NCBI RefSeq assembly: GCF_014203605.1 | Contig: NZ_JACHJJ010000025.1 | Span: 1 to 64,000 of the forward strand | Direction: 5' to 3' | DNA length: 64,000 nt | Source of the DNA: Thiemannella venezuelensis | GTDB taxonomy: Bacteria; Actinomycetota; Actinomycetes; Streptosporangiales; Streptosporangiaceae | Shown here: piece by piece, positions 1-16,714 of the stretch | Layout: each line of letters begins with the position of its first letter | Position numbering within the stretch: the stretch's first letter is position 1 | Made by a program: the position numbers and the translations under genes | The notes under the pieces: model-generated | Seen by the model: the letters and a program-made list of their open reading frames with translations, nothing else | Told to the model about the DNA's origin: nothing | Databases searched by the model: none

Positions 1-232
1 AACTCCGGCGGATAGTTGTTCGGCACAGTGGACTCCTTCTTCCGGGAACCAGGGTTCCCCAGAGGTCAGGTGTCCACCAAACCGGGTCAACTCCAGAAAT
101 CACCAACGGTGTGGAGCCCCACCACGACATCACCGTTGATCACCTTGTGGGGGGAGCTTAAGGTCAAGCTTCTCCCCTCAACTCCCTCGAAAACAGGAGA
201 CACAAGCACGACCGCAATGCCATCCTACGGTT
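1..232. other. Upstream region with an inverted repeat
   Basis: No gene is supported here. CAACGGTG at 104-111 is repeated in inverted form as CACCGTTG at 131-138, enclosing a GTGG/CCAC pair, so a hairpin is possible. AACAGGAGAC at 192-201 resembles a ribosome binding site, but it lies about 32 bases before the ATG at 233 and has no start codon of that frame at normal spacing. Confidence 0.3.
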
Positions 233-2269
233 ATGGAAGTGAACCTGCCTCAAGACCTGGGTGAAGTGCAACATGAGGTGCGGGAGGCGACTCGTGCTCT
301 GATTCGGAATCTTCACCTCTCTCTCCCCTCACCGGTGGACGGGAGTCGACAACGAGAGGCATTCGTACCGCTCACGTCTGCTCAATGGAGGACCGTCCTT
401 GAGGATGCTCAATTAATCAAACAGTGGCATCAGACTAAGGAAATAATAAATAGTTTAGCTTCGATCACTTCCACCTCAGGCCGAACAATCGGGAAGCGAC
501 TTCCTGGCCTAATGAGGCTACTCGCCACGGCAGCAAATAGAATTGCATATACCAAATTCGAGATCGCCAAATTTAATCCGCCCGAAAATTTCATGGACCA
601 GAAAAGCCTATCCGAAGATCTTTGCCTATCTGTAATTCGGGTAGTGCGAGAAATGTTTGCATGCGTGAGTCAGGGATGGGAATCCCCTGCATGGCTGTCA
701 GTTAAATCGCACGCCCTCACATCAGACACTTTAGCCAATCAATTGAGAATAATAATTTCCTCGCCTGTTAACGAAAACGAGGACGTATATGAGCGAGTCC
801 TAGGCTTGTCGGGAGACGAGTTCAGAAAGGGTGATCCGGTAGCAGGCTGGGCACGTCTCGGAGCGGCTTGGGCCCGAGATCAAGAGAATCTTGATAAGAG
901 ATTACGTCACCAGATGCGACACCTAATCGTCGACAGCCTGTTGCCCATTACAGTTAAGCTTCGTCAGCATCTAGTCGCTCTTGCGACAGCGAATCGACCG
1001 CTGATCGCACATCATTCCGCAATTCTAGCGCGCGACTTCATAACGGATAAATTAAGAGAAGATCTAGATCACACTCGTATCGTCATTGGACGGCACGTGA
1101 AGACTGTACCCTTGATGTTGTCTGCACATCGAGGAAAGAAAAATTCATGGAAAATGTATATTGAAGCCGCCCATCCAGAAGACCAAGTGCGACCACTTTT
1201 AGACCTGTATAAGATCGTCTCGGAAGGGGATGTGAAGCGGACCGCTATCGTTGTCCTAGAGCTCCTTGGCAGGACAGTCCCCACCACGGTTACGCTGGCC
1301 ACAGTCAAAGACTTACTCAGCGCCGAAGGCAACGCTCCGATGTGCGAGATGCTGGCTGCTTTAATACGTCCAGAGTGGCGCAATGCAATCGCCCATGAGG
1401 ATTTCCTCTGGGATTCAGAAAAGTCGATGGCGATACTTGATGGCAAGCTAGTTAGCCTTGGTGAGCTGCTTCATACATCCATTGCGGCTATGAACATTTG
1501 TGAAGGTTTCGAACACGGAGTTGCCGTGTCCTATGCGCAAAATTCGAAGCTGAACCCTTGGGATGAAACTGTCTCTACTAGTCTTGACGGATTGACCCGC
1601 GTTCTTCAAACGATGGGCAACGTTGGCCAACCCGTACTAGACGGTCGCAAACGAGGACCCTGTATTCGGCTTGATGTACCAGATATCTCCATTGAGTCCA
1701 TTCAAACATTGCTTCGAGCCATTTTAATGGCCGCACAAGTGGACAATTCGATTGACCTGTGGGAAGTTAGACAAGGGCCCGATCGACCAATACTAAATAT
1801 CGACAGATTCGCTATAGAGGCGGCCTTGAAAGTCGCCAGCGGACTCTGGGAAAGTACTGACCCCACACCGTTTGCAAGTCTACCTCTAATTGCGAACGGC
1901 ATGAGGAATGCGGGAGAAGATGACACCGTTTCCGCTGGAACAATTCTGGCTCTAGCCGCAGCACACGTAACCGGGGAAAGGAGTCGACTAACACCTTCTC
2001 TTGCTAGTGCAGATCCCGCAGCGAAAAACGAAATGCTCACTACCGTAAGGCTAATCTCCGACGGAGTCAACGTGGCCTCAACCTTCCTTGAAGGGGATCG
2101 ACCAAAAAGGAAGTTGCTTATGTTTGCCCAAATTCTGTCCGGGGATTGCCAGTGGCATGAGAACGCCCCCCCATCTGCCCTCATATCAGGATTCTCCCCT
2201 GCCGACCGTGCTCTAAATCGGAACATGCCAGCGCACATACCGTGGATTATGCCAAGCGCAGGCCGGTAA
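233..2269 (+). CDS. Large unknown protein with a HEPN-type RNxxxH motif
   Basis: The 678-residue protein has no family I recognise over its full length, no signal peptide and no membrane segment. It looks mostly helical. Residues 383-388 read RNAIAH, followed by acidic residues. This is the Rx4H signature of HEPN domains, which are RNA-cleaving modules in many toxin-antitoxin, abortive-infection and CRISPR effector proteins. Base composition is clearly lower in G+C than in all neighbours. At least eight leucines are encoded by TTA, which is very rare in such genomes and makes translation dependent on the bldA-type tRNA. ATG 233 is the first start in frame; GTG 239 is an alternative. Both lack a well-placed ribosome binding site. 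A defence role is an inference from the motif, composition and position beside a mobile element. Confidence 0.85.
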   Translation: MEVNLPQDLGEVQHEVREATRALIRNLHLSLPSPVDGSRQREAFVPLTSAQWRTVLEDAQLIKQWHQTKEIINSLASITSTSGRTIGKRLPGLMRLLATAANRIAYTKFEIAKFNPPENFMDQKSLSEDLCLSVIRVVREMFACVSQGWESPAWLSVKSHALTSDTLANQLRIIISSPVNENEDVYERVLGLSGDEFRKGDPVAGWARLGAAWARDQENLDKRLRHQMRHLIVDSLLPITVKLRQHLVALATANRPLIAHHSAILARDFITDKLREDLDHTRIVIGRHVKTVPLMLSAHRGKKNSWKMYIEAAHPEDQVRPLLDLYKIVSEGDVKRTAIVVLELLGRTVPTTVTLATVKDLLSAEGNAPMCEMLAALIRPEWRNAIAHEDFLWDSEKSMAILDGKLVSLGELLHTSIAAMNICEGFEHGVAVSYAQNSKLNPWDETVSTSLDGLTRVLQTMGNVGQPVLDGRKRGPCIRLDVPDISIESIQTLLRAILMAAQVDNSIDLWEVRQGPDRPILNIDRFAIEAALKVASGLWESTDPTPFASLPLIANGMRNAGEDDTVSAGTILALAAAHVTGERSRLTPSLASADPAAKNEMLTTVRLISDGVNVASTFLEGDRPKRKLLMFAQILSGDCQWHENAPPSALISGFSPADRALNRNMPAHIPWIMPSAGR

Positions 2270-6425: not shown

Positions 6426-6764
6426 ATGCGCAACATCCCCATCCCCGTCGACGTCTCCCGGCTCCAGTTCATCTGCGTCAAGGCACCCTGCCCCCGCGTC
6501 ATCAACAGGGACACGGGCGAGATCAAGACCGACAAGGCCAGCGGCCAGACGGTCTACGAGGTCCTGTGCTCGGTGGAGGACGCCTTCGGCAAGATCGAGC
6601 TGGTCAAGGTCAGCGTCGTCGGAGAGCCCCCGGTCAGCCCCGGTGATCAGGTCAACCCGGTCGGCCTGGTGGGGTACGTCTGGGAGCTGTCCGGCCGCTG
6701 GGGCATCGCCTACCGGGCGTCGGCCATGCTGCCCGCCGCCGCGGCGGAGGTGCGCGGTGTCTGA
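6426..6764 (+). CDS. pra: Pra-like activator (SCO3933 family)
   Basis: The 112-residue protein belongs to the SCO3933/Pra family of actinomycete plasmids and AICEs. Recognisable features are the N-terminal MRNIPIPVDVSRLQF, the segment RDTGEIKTDKASGQTVYEV, and the C-terminal GLVGYVWELSGRWGIAYRAS. In pSAM2, Pra activates rep, xis and int, switching the element to replication and excision. The ATG at 6426 is chosen because CTGGAGG precedes it at correct spacing; a longer frame from 6354 would run through the operator. The last eight bases overlap the translocase gene, so the two are translationally coupled. Confidence 0.85.
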   Translation: MRNIPIPVDVSRLQFICVKAPCPRVINRDTGEIKTDKASGQTVYEVLCSVEDAFGKIELVKVSVVGEPPVSPGDQVNPVGLVGYVWELSGRWGIAYRASAMLPAAAAEVRGV

Positions 6765-8085
6765 TCGCTTCCTCCTGGCGCTCCTCGATGTCCTCGTGGT
6801 TCTGGTCGTCACCGTGGCCGGCCTGTGGGCTTGGCGGCGCTGGCACTACCGGTCGTTCTGGCTGGTGGTCGGCTACCCGCTCATGGCGATCAGCGTCCGC
6901 GCCACCTGGCGGAAGGTCGCCCTCGGCTGCGGCCTGACCAAGAAGCGGCAGCGTTTCTGGTTCACCACCGTCCCCGGCCTGGTCTCCTCGACCGGCGTCG
7001 TGAAGGTCAAGCGGCGTTTCCAGCGAATCGCGGTCGACACCAAGCCGTGGATGTGGCTGCCCCTGCCCACGCGGTACGGCTGGCGCGTCACGCTCCACAC
7101 CCTCGAAGGGCAGACCCCCGACGACTACCGCCAAGCGGCCGAACAGCTCGCGCACTCCTGGCGGGTGCACGCCGTACGGGTCTCCTCGCCCCGGCCCGGC
7201 CGGGTCGTGCTGGCCGCGACCATGCGTGATCCGCTGGTGCGGGTGGATGAGATCCCGCCCTCGTCGGAGCTGCTGAAGGTCACCGTGGGACGGCTGGAGA
7301 CCGGCAAACCGTGGGAGATCGACTTCCGCACCGTGCCGCACTGGCTGAACGCCGGGGCGACGCAATCCGGGAAGTCGAACCTCGCCAACGCGCTCATCGT
7401 CGGCCTGGCTCCGCAGCCGGTCGCCCTGGTCGGCTTCGACCTCAAGGGCGGCGTGGAGTTCACCCCCTACGCACCCCGGCTGTCGGCGCTGGCCACGTCC
7501 CGTGCCGAGTGCGTCGGCCTGCTCGATGACCTCGTGAGCCTGATGGCCGACCGGATGACCGCATGCCGTACGGCCGGCGCCCGCAACATCTGGCAGCTCC
7601 CGCCGGACCTGCGGCCGGTGCCGGTCGTGGTCCTGGTCGACGAGCTCGCCGAGTTGTACCTGATGGCCGACAAGAGCGAGAAAGACGAGATCGCACGTAC
7701 CTCGACGGCGCTGCTGCGGGTGGCGCAGCTCGGGCGGGCCTTCGGCATCTACCTGTTCTGCTGCGGCCAGCGCATCGGCTCCGACCTCGGCCCCGGCGTC
7801 ACGGCGCTGCGCGCCCAGTGCTCGGGCCGCATCTGCCACCGGGTCAACGATCCGGAGACCGCGACCATGACCCTCGGCGACCTCGACCCGGCCGCGCTGG
7901 TCTCCGCCCGCGCCATCCCCGCCGAGACATCCGGGGTCGCGATCGTGGCCGGCCAGGACGGCCAGTGGTACCGCGCCCGCTCCTTCTACGTCTCCGAGCA
8001 CGCGGCCGAACACGCCGCCCGCATGTACGCCGATCTCACCCCTCCTTGGAGGAGATCACCAGCGGCGCTCAGCCGATCGAGATGA
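6757..8085 (+). CDS. FtsK/SpoIIIE-type DNA translocase (Tra), 3' frameshift
   Basis: This is the conjugation motor of the AICE, expected to move double-stranded DNA between mycelial cells as a membrane hexamer. The GTG start at 6757 overlaps pra. Residues 5-22 form a membrane segment. Walker A is GATQSGKS at 200-207 (lysine 206) and Walker B is VVVLVDE with Asp295-Glu296. After about residue 427 the present frame gives an odd arginine-rich tail and ends at 8085. From 8040 the next frame has proper codon usage for 36 more residues (SLEEITSGAQPIEMTDDDL and on) and stops at 8150, just before the next gene. A lost C in the CCCC run at 8039-8042 would explain this. A programmed slip is less likely but possible. 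Confidence 0.85.
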   Translation: MSDRFLLALLDVLVVLVVTVAGLWAWRRWHYRSFWLVVGYPLMAISVRATWRKVALGCGLTKKRQRFWFTTVPGLVSSTGVVKVKRRFQRIAVDTKPWMWLPLPTRYGWRVTLHTLEGQTPDDYRQAAEQLAHSWRVHAVRVSSPRPGRVVLAATMRDPLVRVDEIPPSSELLKVTVGRLETGKPWEIDFRTVPHWLNAGATQSGKSNLANALIVGLAPQPVALVGFDLKGGVEFTPYAPRLSALATSRAECVGLLDDLVSLMADRMTACRTAGARNIWQLPPDLRPVPVVVLVDELAELYLMADKSEKDEIARTSTALLRVAQLGRAFGIYLFCCGQRIGSDLGPGVTALRAQCSGRICHRVNDPETATMTLGDLDPAALVSARAIPAETSGVAIVAGQDGQWYRARSFYVSEHAAEHAARMYADLTPPWRRSPAALSRSR

Positions 8086-9581: not shown

Positions 9582-10949
9582 TTGCCCCACCCGCACGCCG
9601 TAGCCGGGATGGTCTCCCGGCTCAACGATCCCCACTACGCCCGCTGGGCCTCCCAGGTCCGCGCCACCGGCGGCTGCCGACAGCCGATCCACCTGCGCGG
9701 CAAGGTCCAGCACATCGACCGCGCGACCGGTGAACTCCTCCACTCCTACAGCACCCGCACCGAACCCGGCGGCGTGCTCCGGGTCCCGTGCAAGACCCGC
9801 CGGGCCTCGCGCTGCCCGGCCTGCGCCGAGGTCTACCGCGCCGACACCTACCAGTTGATCCGCGCGGGCCTGGCCGGCGGCAAGGGCGTGCCCGAAAGCG
9901 TGACCGCTCACCCGTGTCTGTTCGTCACCCTGACCACCCCGTCCTTCGGCGTCGTCCACACCCGCCGGGAGAAGAACGGCACGGTCCTGCCCTGCCACGC
10001 CCGCCGCGACGCGGCCACCTGCCCGCATGGGCGGGTCATGTCCTGCACCGCCCGCCACGGCACCGAAGAGACCTCCCTCGGCGAACCGCTCTGCCCCGAC
10101 TGCTACGACTACGCGGGCTCGGTCCTGTTCAACGCCCTGTCGCCGGAGCTGTGGCGACGCTTCACCCTGGCCCTGCGCCGCCGCCTGGCCAAGACCGCGG
10201 GCCTGACCGTTCGGGAGCTGCGCGAGCAGGTGACGGTGTCCTTCGCCAAGGTCGCCGAGTACCAGCGGCGCGGCGTCGTGCACTTCCACGCCGTCATCCG
10301 CCTCGACGGCCCCGACGGACCCACCGCCTCGCCTCCGGCCTGGGCGACGGCCGACGCCCTGGCGGACGCCGTCCGGCACGCTGCCTCGGCCGTCTCCGTG
10401 CCGGTCCCGGCCGCCGAGGGTGAACCGGCGCGGGTACTGCGCTGGGGAGCTCAGCTCGACGTCCGCCCGATCACGATGGGCGGGGAACTGACCGATCAGG
10501 CGGTGGCCGGCTACATCGCCAAGTACGCCACCAAGGCCGCCGAGTGCGTCGGCACCCTCGACCGGCGCATCAGCCCCCTTGACGACCTGGACGCGCTGCC
10601 CATCCGCGAGCATGCCCGGCGGCTCATCGCCGAGTGCTTCCGCCTGGGCGCCCTCGACGGCCTGGCCGAGCTACGGCTGACCCAGTGGGCGCACATGCTG
10701 GGCTTCCGCGGCCACTTCTCCACCAAGTCCCGCCGCTACTCCACCACCTTCGGGCAGATCCGCGAGGAACGCGCCGAGCACATGCGGGCCGAAGCGGTCA
10801 CCACCGGACGGCTCCCCCTCTTCGAGGAGGACACCGTCCTCGTGATCGCCGAATGGGAGTACGCCGGACAGGGCTACTCCCTCGGTGACGCGCTCCTCGC
10901 CGCAGCGTTGACCGGCGTCCCCCTGGCCGATCCCGGGGGCTCGCGATGA
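9582..10949 (+). CDS. RepSA-type rolling-circle replication initiator
   Basis: The protein (455 residues) is the HUH-type replication initiator of pSAM2-like elements, which nicks the double-strand origin to start rolling-circle replication after excision. The HUH motif is at residues 234-236 (VVHFHAVI). The catalytic tyrosine region is YIAKYATK, with Tyr311, Lys314 and Tyr315. Cysteine pairs near residue 83 (CPAC) and at about 168 (CPDC) suggest zinc binding. A TTG at 9582 behind AGGACGG is the best start; ATG 9609 is an alternative. The stop overlaps the excisionase start (ATGA). Confidence 0.88.
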   Translation: MPHPHAVAGMVSRLNDPHYARWASQVRATGGCRQPIHLRGKVQHIDRATGELLHSYSTRTEPGGVLRVPCKTRRASRCPACAEVYRADTYQLIRAGLAGGKGVPESVTAHPCLFVTLTTPSFGVVHTRREKNGTVLPCHARRDAATCPHGRVMSCTARHGTEETSLGEPLCPDCYDYAGSVLFNALSPELWRRFTLALRRRLAKTAGLTVRELREQVTVSFAKVAEYQRRGVVHFHAVIRLDGPDGPTASPPAWATADALADAVRHAASAVSVPVPAAEGEPARVLRWGAQLDVRPITMGGELTDQAVAGYIAKYATKAAECVGTLDRRISPLDDLDALPIREHARRLIAECFRLGALDGLAELRLTQWAHMLGFRGHFSTKSRRYSTTFGQIREERAEHMRAEAVTTGRLPLFEEDTVLVIAEWEYAGQGYSLGDALLAAALTGVPLADPGGSR

Positions 10950-11122
10950 AGACGACGGACCGGCTCTGGACGGTGGAGGAGGTCGCCGAGTACCTCGGCG
11001 TGCCGGTCGGGACCCTCTACCAGTGGCGCTGCAAGCGGATCGGCCCACCCGGCCGGCGGATCGGCAAGCACCTGCGCTACCTCCCCGAGGACGTGTACGT
11101 CTGGGTCCGGGAGCAGACATGA
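10946..11122 (+). CDS. xis: Excisionase (Xis), helix-turn-helix
   Basis: The 58-residue protein is one MerR-like winged helix: WTVEEVAEYLGVPVGTLYQW is the helix-turn-helix and RRIGKHLRYLPEDVYVW the wing and last helix. Small proteins of this type next to AICE integrases direct excision together with the integrase. The gene overlaps rep at its start and the integrase at its end (ATGA, 11119-11122), so rep-xis-int form one coupled operon, presumably switched on by the Pra-like protein. Confidence 0.88.
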   Translation: MKTTDRLWTVEEVAEYLGVPVGTLYQWRCKRIGPPGRRIGKHLRYLPEDVYVWVREQT

Positions 11123-12315
11123 CCGTCTACGACCGGTGGCACAAGTCCCGCCCCGAGCCCGGAGAGGCGAAGTGCTCCGAGCACAAGCGCGTGCCGACCG
11201 CCAAGCACGGCCAGGGAGCACGCTGGCAGGTCCGCTACCGCGACGAGAAGGGCCAGCAGCTCAAGCGCAACTTCGAGCGGAAGGCCGACGCCGACCGCTT
11301 CGACGTGACACGCCGTGCCGACGAGCCGCGCGGCGAGTGGATCGACCCCAAGCTCGGGCAGACCAGGTTCCAGGTGTACGCGCAGACGTGGATGGCGTCG
11401 CGGCTGCACAAGCCCGGGACCGCGATGACCTACGCCGGGCACCTGAAGAACCACATCAACCCGGTCTTCGGCCTGGTCCCGCTGATCTCCATACGGCCCA
11501 CCGCCGTGCAGCGGTGGGTGAAGGACCTCCACGTGAAGGGCCTGGCGCCGCGTACGGTCGAGACCGTCTATGTGATCTTCTCCAGCGTCATGCGCGGTGC
11601 CGTGCGGGACGGCATGATCCGCCGTTCTCCCTGTGTCGACATCCGCTTGCCGGAGCCGGACAAGACCACGATCCGGCTCCTCTCCCCCGCCGAGGTGATC
11701 GCGCTCTACCGGGCCATGCGGCCCGAGTACGCGCCGCTGGTCCTCCTGGGTGCCGCGGCCGGTCTCCGGCAGGGTGAGGCCCTCGGCCTGGCCGTCGACC
11801 GGATCGACTTCGCCGAGGGCATGCTGACGGTGGACCAGCAGGTCGTGGTGATCGACCGGCGTCCGGTGCTGGCCCCGCCGAAGACGCGGGCCTCCGTCCG
11901 CGACGTCCCGGTGCCGGCCGTTCTCGCCGACGCGCTGGCCGAGCACATCGACCGGTGCGAACCCGAGGACGTGCTGTTCCGGACGACGCGCGGCAATCTG
12001 ATCCGGCGCGACTACTTCAACGCCGACGTCCTGCGGCCCGCGATCCTCGCGGCCGGGGTGCCGGCGGACATGACGTTCCACGATCTGCGGCACACCTTCG
12101 CCAGTACGGCGCTCGCCGAGGGCGTGCCGATCTCCGAGGTGTCCCGGTGGCTCGGGCACGAGTCCATCACGACGACCGTGGACCTGTACGGGCACCTGGT
12201 CCCGGAGGCCTCCGAGCGGGCGCGGACGGCGCTGGACAACGCCTTCGCCTCGGCGCTCGGGTCCGCCGGATGTGCCCCCGATGTGCCCTCTCAGGGCTTC
12301 GATCTTCCCGGGTGA
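11119..12315 (+). CDS. int: Tyrosine site-specific integrase
   Basis: The start at ATG 11119 overlaps xis and gives 398 residues. An arm-binding, AP2-like N-terminus (residues 30-80) is followed by a SAM-like core-binding domain (about 85-175) and the catalytic domain. All catalytic residues are present: Arg217 (GLRQGEAL), Lys255, His321-x-x-Arg324 (HDLRH), His347 (LGHES) and Tyr357 (DLYGH). The gene ends 32 bases before the 3' end of rnpB on the other strand, as is usual for integrases whose attachment site lies in an RNA gene. Confidence 0.95.
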   Translation: MTVYDRWHKSRPEPGEAKCSEHKRVPTAKHGQGARWQVRYRDEKGQQLKRNFERKADADRFDVTRRADEPRGEWIDPKLGQTRFQVYAQTWMASRLHKPGTAMTYAGHLKNHINPVFGLVPLISIRPTAVQRWVKDLHVKGLAPRTVETVYVIFSSVMRGAVRDGMIRRSPCVDIRLPEPDKTTIRLLSPAEVIALYRAMRPEYAPLVLLGAAAGLRQGEALGLAVDRIDFAEGMLTVDQQVVVIDRRPVLAPPKTRASVRDVPVPAVLADALAEHIDRCEPEDVLFRTTRGNLIRRDYFNADVLRPAILAAGVPADMTFHDLRHTFASTALAEGVPISEVSRWLGHESITTTVDLYGHLVPEASERARTALDNAFASALGSAGCAPDVPSQGFDLPG

Positions 12316-12339: not shown

Positions 12340-12385
12340 GGTGGGGCGGACGAGTCGGCCTGTAGGCCGGGTTTTGTCCTTCGCT
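12340..12385. other. Candidate att site at the rnpB 3' end
   Basis: The integrase gene ends at 12315 and the mature rnpB 3' end lies near 12348. By analogy with tRNA- and tmRNA-targeting elements, the core att sequence should overlap the last bases of rnpB, around GGCCTGTAGGCC at 12357-12368. The exact core cannot be set, because no second copy was found to the left within the window. Confidence 0.5.
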
Positions 12386-12742
12386 CGCGCGAAGGGGCGA
12401 CCATCCATCTAGGACCGCCGTTGCCGGCGGCCTCAAGCGGTCTACCCGCGCGGCTCGGGCGGGCCGCCCTCAGGCGCCGCGCGCGGGACGCCCCGGAGGG
12501 CGTCCCTTCTTGACCTTGCTCCGGGTGGGGTTTACCTAGCCGCCCACGTCACCGTGGGCGCTGGTGGTCTCTTACACCACCCTTTCACCCTTACCCCCCT
12601 CGAGGAGGGGCGGTCTGCTCTCTGTGGCACTGTCCCGCGGGTCACCCCGGGTCGGCGTTACCGACCACCCTGCCCTGTGGAGCCCGGACCTTCCTCGGCG
12701 GGCCTTCGTGAAGACCCGACGCGGCCGCCCGGCCGGCTCGTC
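12348..12742 (-). ncRNA. rnpB: RNase P RNA (bacterial class A)
   Basis: The minus strand carries all the conserved parts of actinomycete RNase P RNA. Near the 5' end, CCGGGCTCCACAGGGCAG leads into the GACAGTGCCACAGAGA region. Then come GGGTGAAAGGGTGGTGTAAG and GGCTAGGTAAACCCCACCCG, followed by AGAGGATGG-type CCTAGATGGATGG. The 3' part ends with ACAAAACCCGGCCTACAG followed by GCCGACTCG. This RNA is the catalytic subunit that removes tRNA 5' leaders. Both ends are estimated to a few bases. The 3' end appears intact even though an integrated element adjoins it. Confidence 0.97.
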
Positions 12743-15560: not shown

Positions 15561-15820
15561 GGCCGTGGCCGTCTCGGGGTGACGCCCGTGCGCGCGGGTG
15601 CGGCGCGTACGGGTCTCCCCTCGCCCATGTCCGATACCCGGTACCCGACCGTTTCCGGTCAGATCTGCACGGGCCGTTCCGTCCCGACCCGGGGTGTCTG
15701 CTCCCGTGCATTCCAGAGCGGCGGGCTGAGGAAGCACCCGCCGGTGGGTCCGCTGTCGTGCATCGGACGTAGCCATCAATGGCACCTCCATTCGCTGATG
15801 GCTGGGGCTGGTCAATGCGG

Positions 15821-15853
15821 GCTTGAGATCTCGGCAGAGCCGAGATCTCAAGC
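15821..15853. repeat. 15-bp perfect inverted repeat at the IscB element left end
   Basis: GCTTGAGATCTCGGC at 15821-15835 and its exact complement at 15839-15853 enclose only AGA. It directly adjoins the CCCCGGCC hairpin at 15853-15872. It lies 5' of iscB, where the guide (omega) RNA of such elements is encoded, so it may be a piece of that RNA. Confidence 0.7.
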
Positions 15854-16714
15854 CCCGGCCTTCAGACCGGGGGTCCTTGACGTGAGTTCCTCGCACTTTG
15901 CTGTTGTGATCCAGGCGTCCGTGACCGTCTCGGAGACGCGCGTCTCAACATTAATCCCACCGGCGGCCGTCCCGGACGTCAGCAGCCGCGCCGCCTCGGC
16001 CAGCCAGGGCCACTCGGTGGCCCAGTGCGCCGCGTCGACCAGGGCGGGACCGCTGCCCGCCTCGATGAACTCGCTCGCCGGGTGGTGGCGCAGGTCGGCG
16101 GTGAGGAACACGTCCACTCCGGCGGCGCGGGCCGTGCCGAGCAGGGAGTCGCCCGCTCCGCCGCTCACCGCGACCCGCAGGACCTCGCGGTCGAGGTCCC
16201 CGGCGACGCGCAGCCCGCCCGCCGTGCCGGGCAGCCCGGCGGCGGCCTGCCGCACGAAGTCGCGCAGGGGCATGGGGGACGGCAGGGAGCCGATGCGGCC
16301 GAGGCCGCGCCGGGGGTCGTCCGCGGAGGGGCTCAGCGGGACCAGCGGGCCGGTCAGGCCGACCGCGCGGGCCAGGGCGTCGGAGACGCCGGGGTCGGCG
16401 ACGTCGGCGTTGGTGTGGGCGGTGTAGAGGGCGACGTCGTTCTTGATCAGGGTGTGGACCAGGCGGCCCTTGAAGGTGGTGGCGGCCACGCTCGTGGTGC
16501 CGCGCAGGTAGAGCGGGTGGTGCGTGACGATCAGGTCGGCGCCCCAGGAGAGCGCCTCGTCGGCGACGGCCGCCACCGGGTCCACCGCGAACAGGACCTT
16601 CCTCACCGGCTGGGACGGGTCGCCGCAGACGAGCCCGACCGCGTCCCACGACTCCGCCCACCGGGGGTCGTACCGGGATTCGAGCTCTCTGATGACGTCG
16701 GCAAGCGTAGGCAC
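15848..16714 (-). CDS. Nif3-like dinuclear metal centre protein
   Basis: The 288-residue protein belongs to the Nif3/YbgI (DUF34, Rv2230c) family, hexameric proteins with two metal ions per subunit. Metal-binding features are VTHHPLY near residue 64, HTNADVADPG near 104, and DAAHWATEWP near 228. The family often acts as a GTP cyclohydrolase I-like or metal-handling protein, but the role is unproven. The C-terminus has been changed: after VTDAWITTAK about 15 residues (to LKAGA) are read from the end hairpin of the IscB element, which replaced the native stop. The extension is short and may be harmless. Confidence 0.9.
   Translation of the reverse strand: MPTLADVIRELESRYDPRWAESWDAVGLVCGDPSQPVRKVLFAVDPVAAVADEALSWGADLIVTHHPLYLRGTTSVAATTFKGRLVHTLIKNDVALYTAHTNADVADPGVSDALARAVGLTGPLVPLSPSADDPRRGLGRIGSLPSPMPLRDFVRQAAAGLPGTAGGLRVAGDLDREVLRVAVSGGAGDSLLGTARAAGVDVFLTADLRHHPASEFIEAGSGPALVDAAHWATEWPWLAEAARLLTSGTAAGGINVETRVSETVTDAWITTAKCEELTSRTPGLKAGA

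Follow-up and report, generated by a model that had tools for sequence, protein, structure and literature searches.

What is encoded by a low-GC gene with a ribonuclease-like motif that lies at the edge of a mobile element, and does it belong to that element? The question is raised by the first gene in a 64,000-nucleotide stretch of Thiemannella venezuelensis DNA (positions 1 to 64,000 of contig NZ_JACHJJ010000025.1, here contig C25), which is referred to as the window. An earlier note on this sequence proposed the gene as a candidate for an unnamed anti-phage or toxin system containing a HEPN domain. The analysis presented here suggests, with moderate confidence, that the gene belongs to an unnamed family of actinomycete HEPN effectors, mostly an optional accessory of Mza-type restriction, which in this genome is solo and mobile on an AICE. 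The gene is probably a mobile anti-phage or suicide gene. The features of the locus are collected in Table 1.

Table 1. Features of the HEPN-motif gene and the adjoining element (positions in the window)
Feature	Position	Strand	Evidence or remark
Insertion sequence (IS) end; left edge of contig C25 falls within the IS	1–95	-	Same 95 bp end contig C37
Gene for the 678-residue HEPN-motif protein	233–2269	+	GC 50.7%, nine TTA codons; homologues found
Second Rx4H match, RHQMRH, residues 225–230	905–922	+	Kept in 13 of 14 aligned proteins
Predicted HEPN domain, residues ~310–440 (helices, motif, hairpin, helix)	1160–1552	+	Conservation and predicted secondary structure; fold of low confidence
RNAIAH, Rx4H motif with N after R, residues 383–388	1379–1396	+	R, N and H unchanged throughout the 14-protein alignment
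FtsK/TraB-type DNA translocase, AICE	6643–8085	+	PF01580
RepSA replication initiator (pSAM2 type), AICE	9582–10949	+	PF20199, E 4.8e-168
Tyrosine integrase, AICE	11023–12315	+	PF00589
att repeat, 29 bp, at the rnpB 3' end	12345–12373	+	Exact copy at C11:6883-6911
rnpB (RNase P RNA), AICE host target, directly behind the integrase	12347–12740	-	RF00010, 276.5 bits

A gene of foreign composition with homologues in actinomycetes

The open reading frame begins with ATG and is fully open, the closest in-frame stop upstream lying at position 137, and the presence of full-length homologues in other genomes establishes it as a real gene. Both the reading frame and the foreign composition described earlier are borne out: the AICE genes to the right have a GC content of approximately 71%, and GC3 is 48.5% in this gene compared with approximately 90% in those genes. 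The TTA codons, previously given as at least eight, lie at residues 61, 75, 167, 224, 274, 323, 361, 377 and 498. Dependence on the rare leucyl-tRNA (bldA), which the earlier note had proposed, does not hold as a feature of the family: conserved bldA control was rejected because the homologues carry only zero to two TTA codons, and those of the window gene therefore reflect its low-GC composition. They could still delay expression in a host with limiting leucyl-tRNA.

A conserved DNA block (TGYCATCCT...) is located at positions 215–232, directly 5' of the start codon, and has the same position in the homologous loci L007–L010 and L024–L026. It is possibly a promoter or operator, and since it lies between the IS and the gene, the promoter need not have been removed by the IS.

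Fifteen further homologous loci, all from actinomycetes, were obtained from a two-row alignment search of genome contigs and from whole-genome and collection searches. Thirteen are intact and two are frameshifted; the alignment used below comprises the window protein and the 13 intact homologues, and counts of 16 loci comprise the window and all 15. Identity to the window protein is 45–46% in the main Streptomyces clade, 33% for G249, 28–29% for G738, G756 and G845, and 21% for G893. The gene is rare: among sampled genomes, 10 of 394 in the Streptomyces family carry it, as do two of 341 in the window's own family, the window genome counted. Single-protein searches of genome contigs, plasmids and phages returned no homologue, nor did alignment searches of viral contigs.

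Conservation of the HEPN motif

The Rx4H signature RNAIAH is present as previously described, and the conservation of its arginine and histidine among homologues, suggested as a check, proved complete: all 14 aligned proteins and both frameshifted genes have R383, N384 and H388, which are hence present at all 16 loci. The alignment has 29 invariant columns, which include these three residues together with E331, W393 and D394, although pairwise identity falls to 16–21%. Across the protein, conservation over 15 residues peaks in the stretch that begins at residue 381. At the composition of this protein, RNxxxH is expected by chance approximately 0.05 times per protein, and Rx4-6H in general approximately four times, so the significance of the motif comes mainly from its conservation at 16 loci. 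The second Rx4H match has no N after the R and is lost in the most distant of the 14 proteins.

Three marks of active HEPN domains have been published (Anantharaman et al. 2013, PMC3710099): helix 3 ends in an Rx4-6H motif, the R is followed by a polar residue, and helix 2 has an acidic residue. At the level of sequence all three marks are matched, the invariant upstream acidic residue E331 falling within a predicted helix (residues 316–331) of a low-confidence model.

An AICE integrated at rnpB

To the right of the gene lies an element that resembles the pSAM2-type AICEs in its RepSA, FtsK/TraB-type and tyrosine integrase genes and in its att repeats. The usual integration sites of AICEs are tRNA genes; the window element instead occupies the 3' end of rnpB, and a limited literature search yielded no report of rnpB as an AICE target. 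Approximately 3 kb past rnpB, a match to the HEARO RNA (RF02033, 83.6 bits, against a gathering score of 83) is found at positions 15609–15881 on the minus strand.

A second contig, C11, terminates in the other end of the kind of IS found at the left edge of the window contig. The att copy on C11 has the direct-repeat orientation expected if C11, the IS and C25 are joined. In a relative of the same genus (G001, contig C3, about 417.7–421.8 kb), a decayed element occupies the same rnpB site and comprises a remnant of a homologous integrase together with C11-side genes. The exact att repeats and the IS end on C11 make it most likely that the HEPN gene is cargo of an AICE of approximately 20 kb and is situated between its att repeats. 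We infer the join of C25 to C11 rather than read it directly, because opposite IS ends occur in two copies (C11:70-94 and C45:24406-24430), the second of which leaves C45 as an alternative partner, and because no alignment with G001 was obtained for the chromosome past the C11 repeat. It was the att repeat that pointed to C11; target-site duplication did not single out a partner. The mobile setting noted earlier is thus upheld, with the gene most likely inside the AICE and not, as had been described, beside it.

Linkage of the family to Mza-type restriction

A search of the homologues' neighbourhoods for defence genes, also suggested in the earlier note, gave a positive result. At 12 of the 15 homologous loci a cluster of the Dcm-Vsr-AIPR-DUF4420-Z1 type is located within 27 kb, and at ten it directly adjoins the HEPN gene. 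The cluster genes at these ten loci are drawn from those for a cytosine-5 methylase, a Vsr endonuclease, AIPR, DUF4420 (PD-(D/E)XK) and a Z1 ATPase, and some of the loci add genes for a GHKL ATPase and for a response-regulator protein; in G398 and G1019, other genes intervene between the HEPN gene and a cluster within approximately 27 kb. The G1019 region (L026) also has PDC-S18 and STAND_TPR, and in two Streptomyces genomes (L027 and L028) the HEPN gene is split by a frameshift while the adjoining Mza-type genes look intact.

The cluster genes match MzaB, MzaC, MzaD and MzaE in PADLOC, on which the name Mza rests here, and we equate this MzaB-E system with the MORC/paraMORC operons with a DThhQXuRhFG helicase (Iyer et al. 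2008, PMC2292703). Mza thereby supplies the usual neighbours of the family (Z1, DUF4420, AIPR, the GHKL ATPase, Dcm and Vsr), but neither PADLOC nor PMC2292703 describes a HEPN gene as part of it. Z1-type operons are described in PMC2292703, and loci with GHKL, response-regulator and cytosine-methylase genes in PMC8011034; the term 'HEPN' is absent from the main texts of both.

A Z1 gene is present in nine of ten Streptomyces-family carriers, compared with 49 in a sample of 200 genomes of that family (Fisher p ~4e-5, a value that overstates independence because the carrier genomes are related). Since most Z1 genomes are without the HEPN protein, Mza is not dependent on it; with the HEPN gene in 10 of 394 genomes and Z1 in 49 of 200, the gene is at most an optional Mza accessory. 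These frequencies would also suit a single HEPN gene for abortive infection or a toxin that acts independently of Mza and merely occupies the same defence islands, a reading that we regard as possible but clearly less probable than an accessory role. It is favoured further by the varying orientation of the gene relative to Mza, by the copies in G249, G845 and G893, which like the window copy do not adjoin Mza, and by the pair G738 and G756, whose HEPN proteins are 83% identical whereas the adjoining Mza types differ (Z1 ~29% identical). That pair also indicates that the association survives partner exchange, and a linkage at 12 of 15 loci that spans two HEPN clades, themselves ~30% identical to each other, exceeds the expectation for random island mates.

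The Mza-unlinked homologues lie in varied surroundings: L029 (G845) has PDC-S11 and JetD (Wadjet) genes in its region, L032 has an FtsK-type AICE gene nearby, and L005 is located near genes read as putatively integrase-like. The window copy is likewise solo. Mza-type genes were found neither beside it on C25 nor in the stretches of C11 and C45 that were read, and a link to Mza across the IS was therefore rejected. The window genome has its own Z1/DUF4420/Vsr/Dcm cluster on contig C16 (L037, C16:158000-177900), with no adjoining HEPN gene; this Mza-like cluster also has a protein weakly matching PDC-M33A.

It is unlikely, though somewhat less so than the alternatives concerning the fold discussed below, that the family supplies Mza-type restriction with a suicide arm, which would sense failure of the Dcm/GHKL/Z1 complex and cut RNA, with the Rx4H motifs at residues 225–230 and 383–388 as two HEPN sites per chain and with mobile elements spreading the arm alone.

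Profile and fold searches

No profile in Pfam, NCBIfam or PADLOC matches the window protein, in agreement with the earlier failure to recognize a full-length family, and no HEPN profile in these libraries matches any of the 14 proteins, a result limited by the divergence of many HEPN families beyond the reach of profile matching. In a profile comparison with RiboL-PSP-HEPN only RNxxxH was aligned (probability 3.5%), and a sequence search of the PDB gave no proof of HEPN. The AlphaFold models, which rest on an alignment five sequences deep (the window protein and genome-contig homologues), have a mean pLDDT of 57.1 for the full-length protein, with values below 50 over residues 366–453, motif included, and of 52.8 for the domain only. 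With these low-pLDDT models, Foldseek and VIA-align gave no significant fold match for the motif region, and the better-modelled parts (residues ~46–180 and ~470–670) match only generic helical bundles. The low-confidence models place helices before the motif and a hairpin and then a long helix after it; the N- and C-terminal parts flanking the HEPN region are conserved and predicted to be mostly helical. Because the models do not confirm the fold, membership of the HEPN superfamily rests on the sequence marks.

The protein might instead have an unrelated helical fold in which RNxxxH arose independently, as the low model confidence, the lack of a fold match and the second conserved Rx4H without N would allow; this is improbable, given that the motif ends a predicted helix, is followed by a hairpin and helix, and has an invariant acidic residue upstream. 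Marginally less probable still is a HEPN fold that retains the motif in a non-RNase, which would regulate the restriction system by binding RNA or protein: profile and fold searches lend no support to a known RNase family and some loci place the gene beside GHKL/response-regulator pairs, but invariance of R, N and H at 16 of 16 loci suits an enzyme better than a binder, and the HEPN domains described as non-catalytic are those without the motif (PMC3710099).

Proposed function and relation to known systems

Under the favoured reading, that of an effector mostly accessory to Mza, the protein is predicted to be a single-chain, metal-independent endoribonuclease of the HEPN type. HEPN enzymes are typically dimeric, and the R and H of Rx4-6H make up their active site. 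By analogy, R383, N384 and H388 would form the active site in a dimer, with E331 as a supporting acidic residue. Its Mza partners would be the Dcm methylase, the Vsr nuclease, the GHKL and Z1 ATPases, the DUF4420 nuclease and AIPR. The RNase would be idle in healthy cells; when a phage escapes or disables this DNA-targeting layer, it would cut host or phage RNA, with tRNA as a likely target, and the infected cell would be stopped. In the window genome it would travel alone as cargo of the rnpB-AICE and would bring about abortive infection by itself. Neither an antitoxin nor a trigger gene was identified. The proposal of an anti-phage or toxin gene is thus strengthened by the conservation of Rx4H, the mobile setting and the defence neighbourhood of the homologues, with RNase activity as the part predicted from the motif.

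Like members of the HEPN superfamily, the protein combines an Rx4H motif, with N after the R, an invariant acidic residue upstream, and ties to restriction systems and mobile DNA (PMC3710099); it differs in matching no catalogued profile and in having its HEPN part mid-chain. HEPN proteins are known to partner restriction systems, and in some restriction loci paraMORC GHKL ATPases occur as fusions with Ymh HEPN domains (PMC3710099), which provides a precedent for the coupling of HEPN proteins to such systems. In the loci described here, which also include GHKL-containing ones, the HEPN protein is encoded by a separate, unfused gene, and the Pfam Ymh profile gave no match. ApeA is likewise a large single-chain HEPN protein, present in restriction loci of some bacteria. 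It gave no PADLOC or Pfam match to the window protein at E values up to 10, and its N-terminal part is beta-rich (PMC3710099), whereas that of the window protein is predicted to be helical.

A HEPN protein adjoining a restriction system is therefore an arrangement known already; new are a family that none of three profile libraries matches, its recurrent linkage to Mza-type clusters, and its solo mobile form. The locus also adds an AICE that uses rnpB, an unusual target, as its integration site and has a likely defence cargo. HEPN RNases are a recurrent fail-safe in bacterial immunity. Mza is poorly understood, and this family offers a direct route to ask whether it has a suicide layer.
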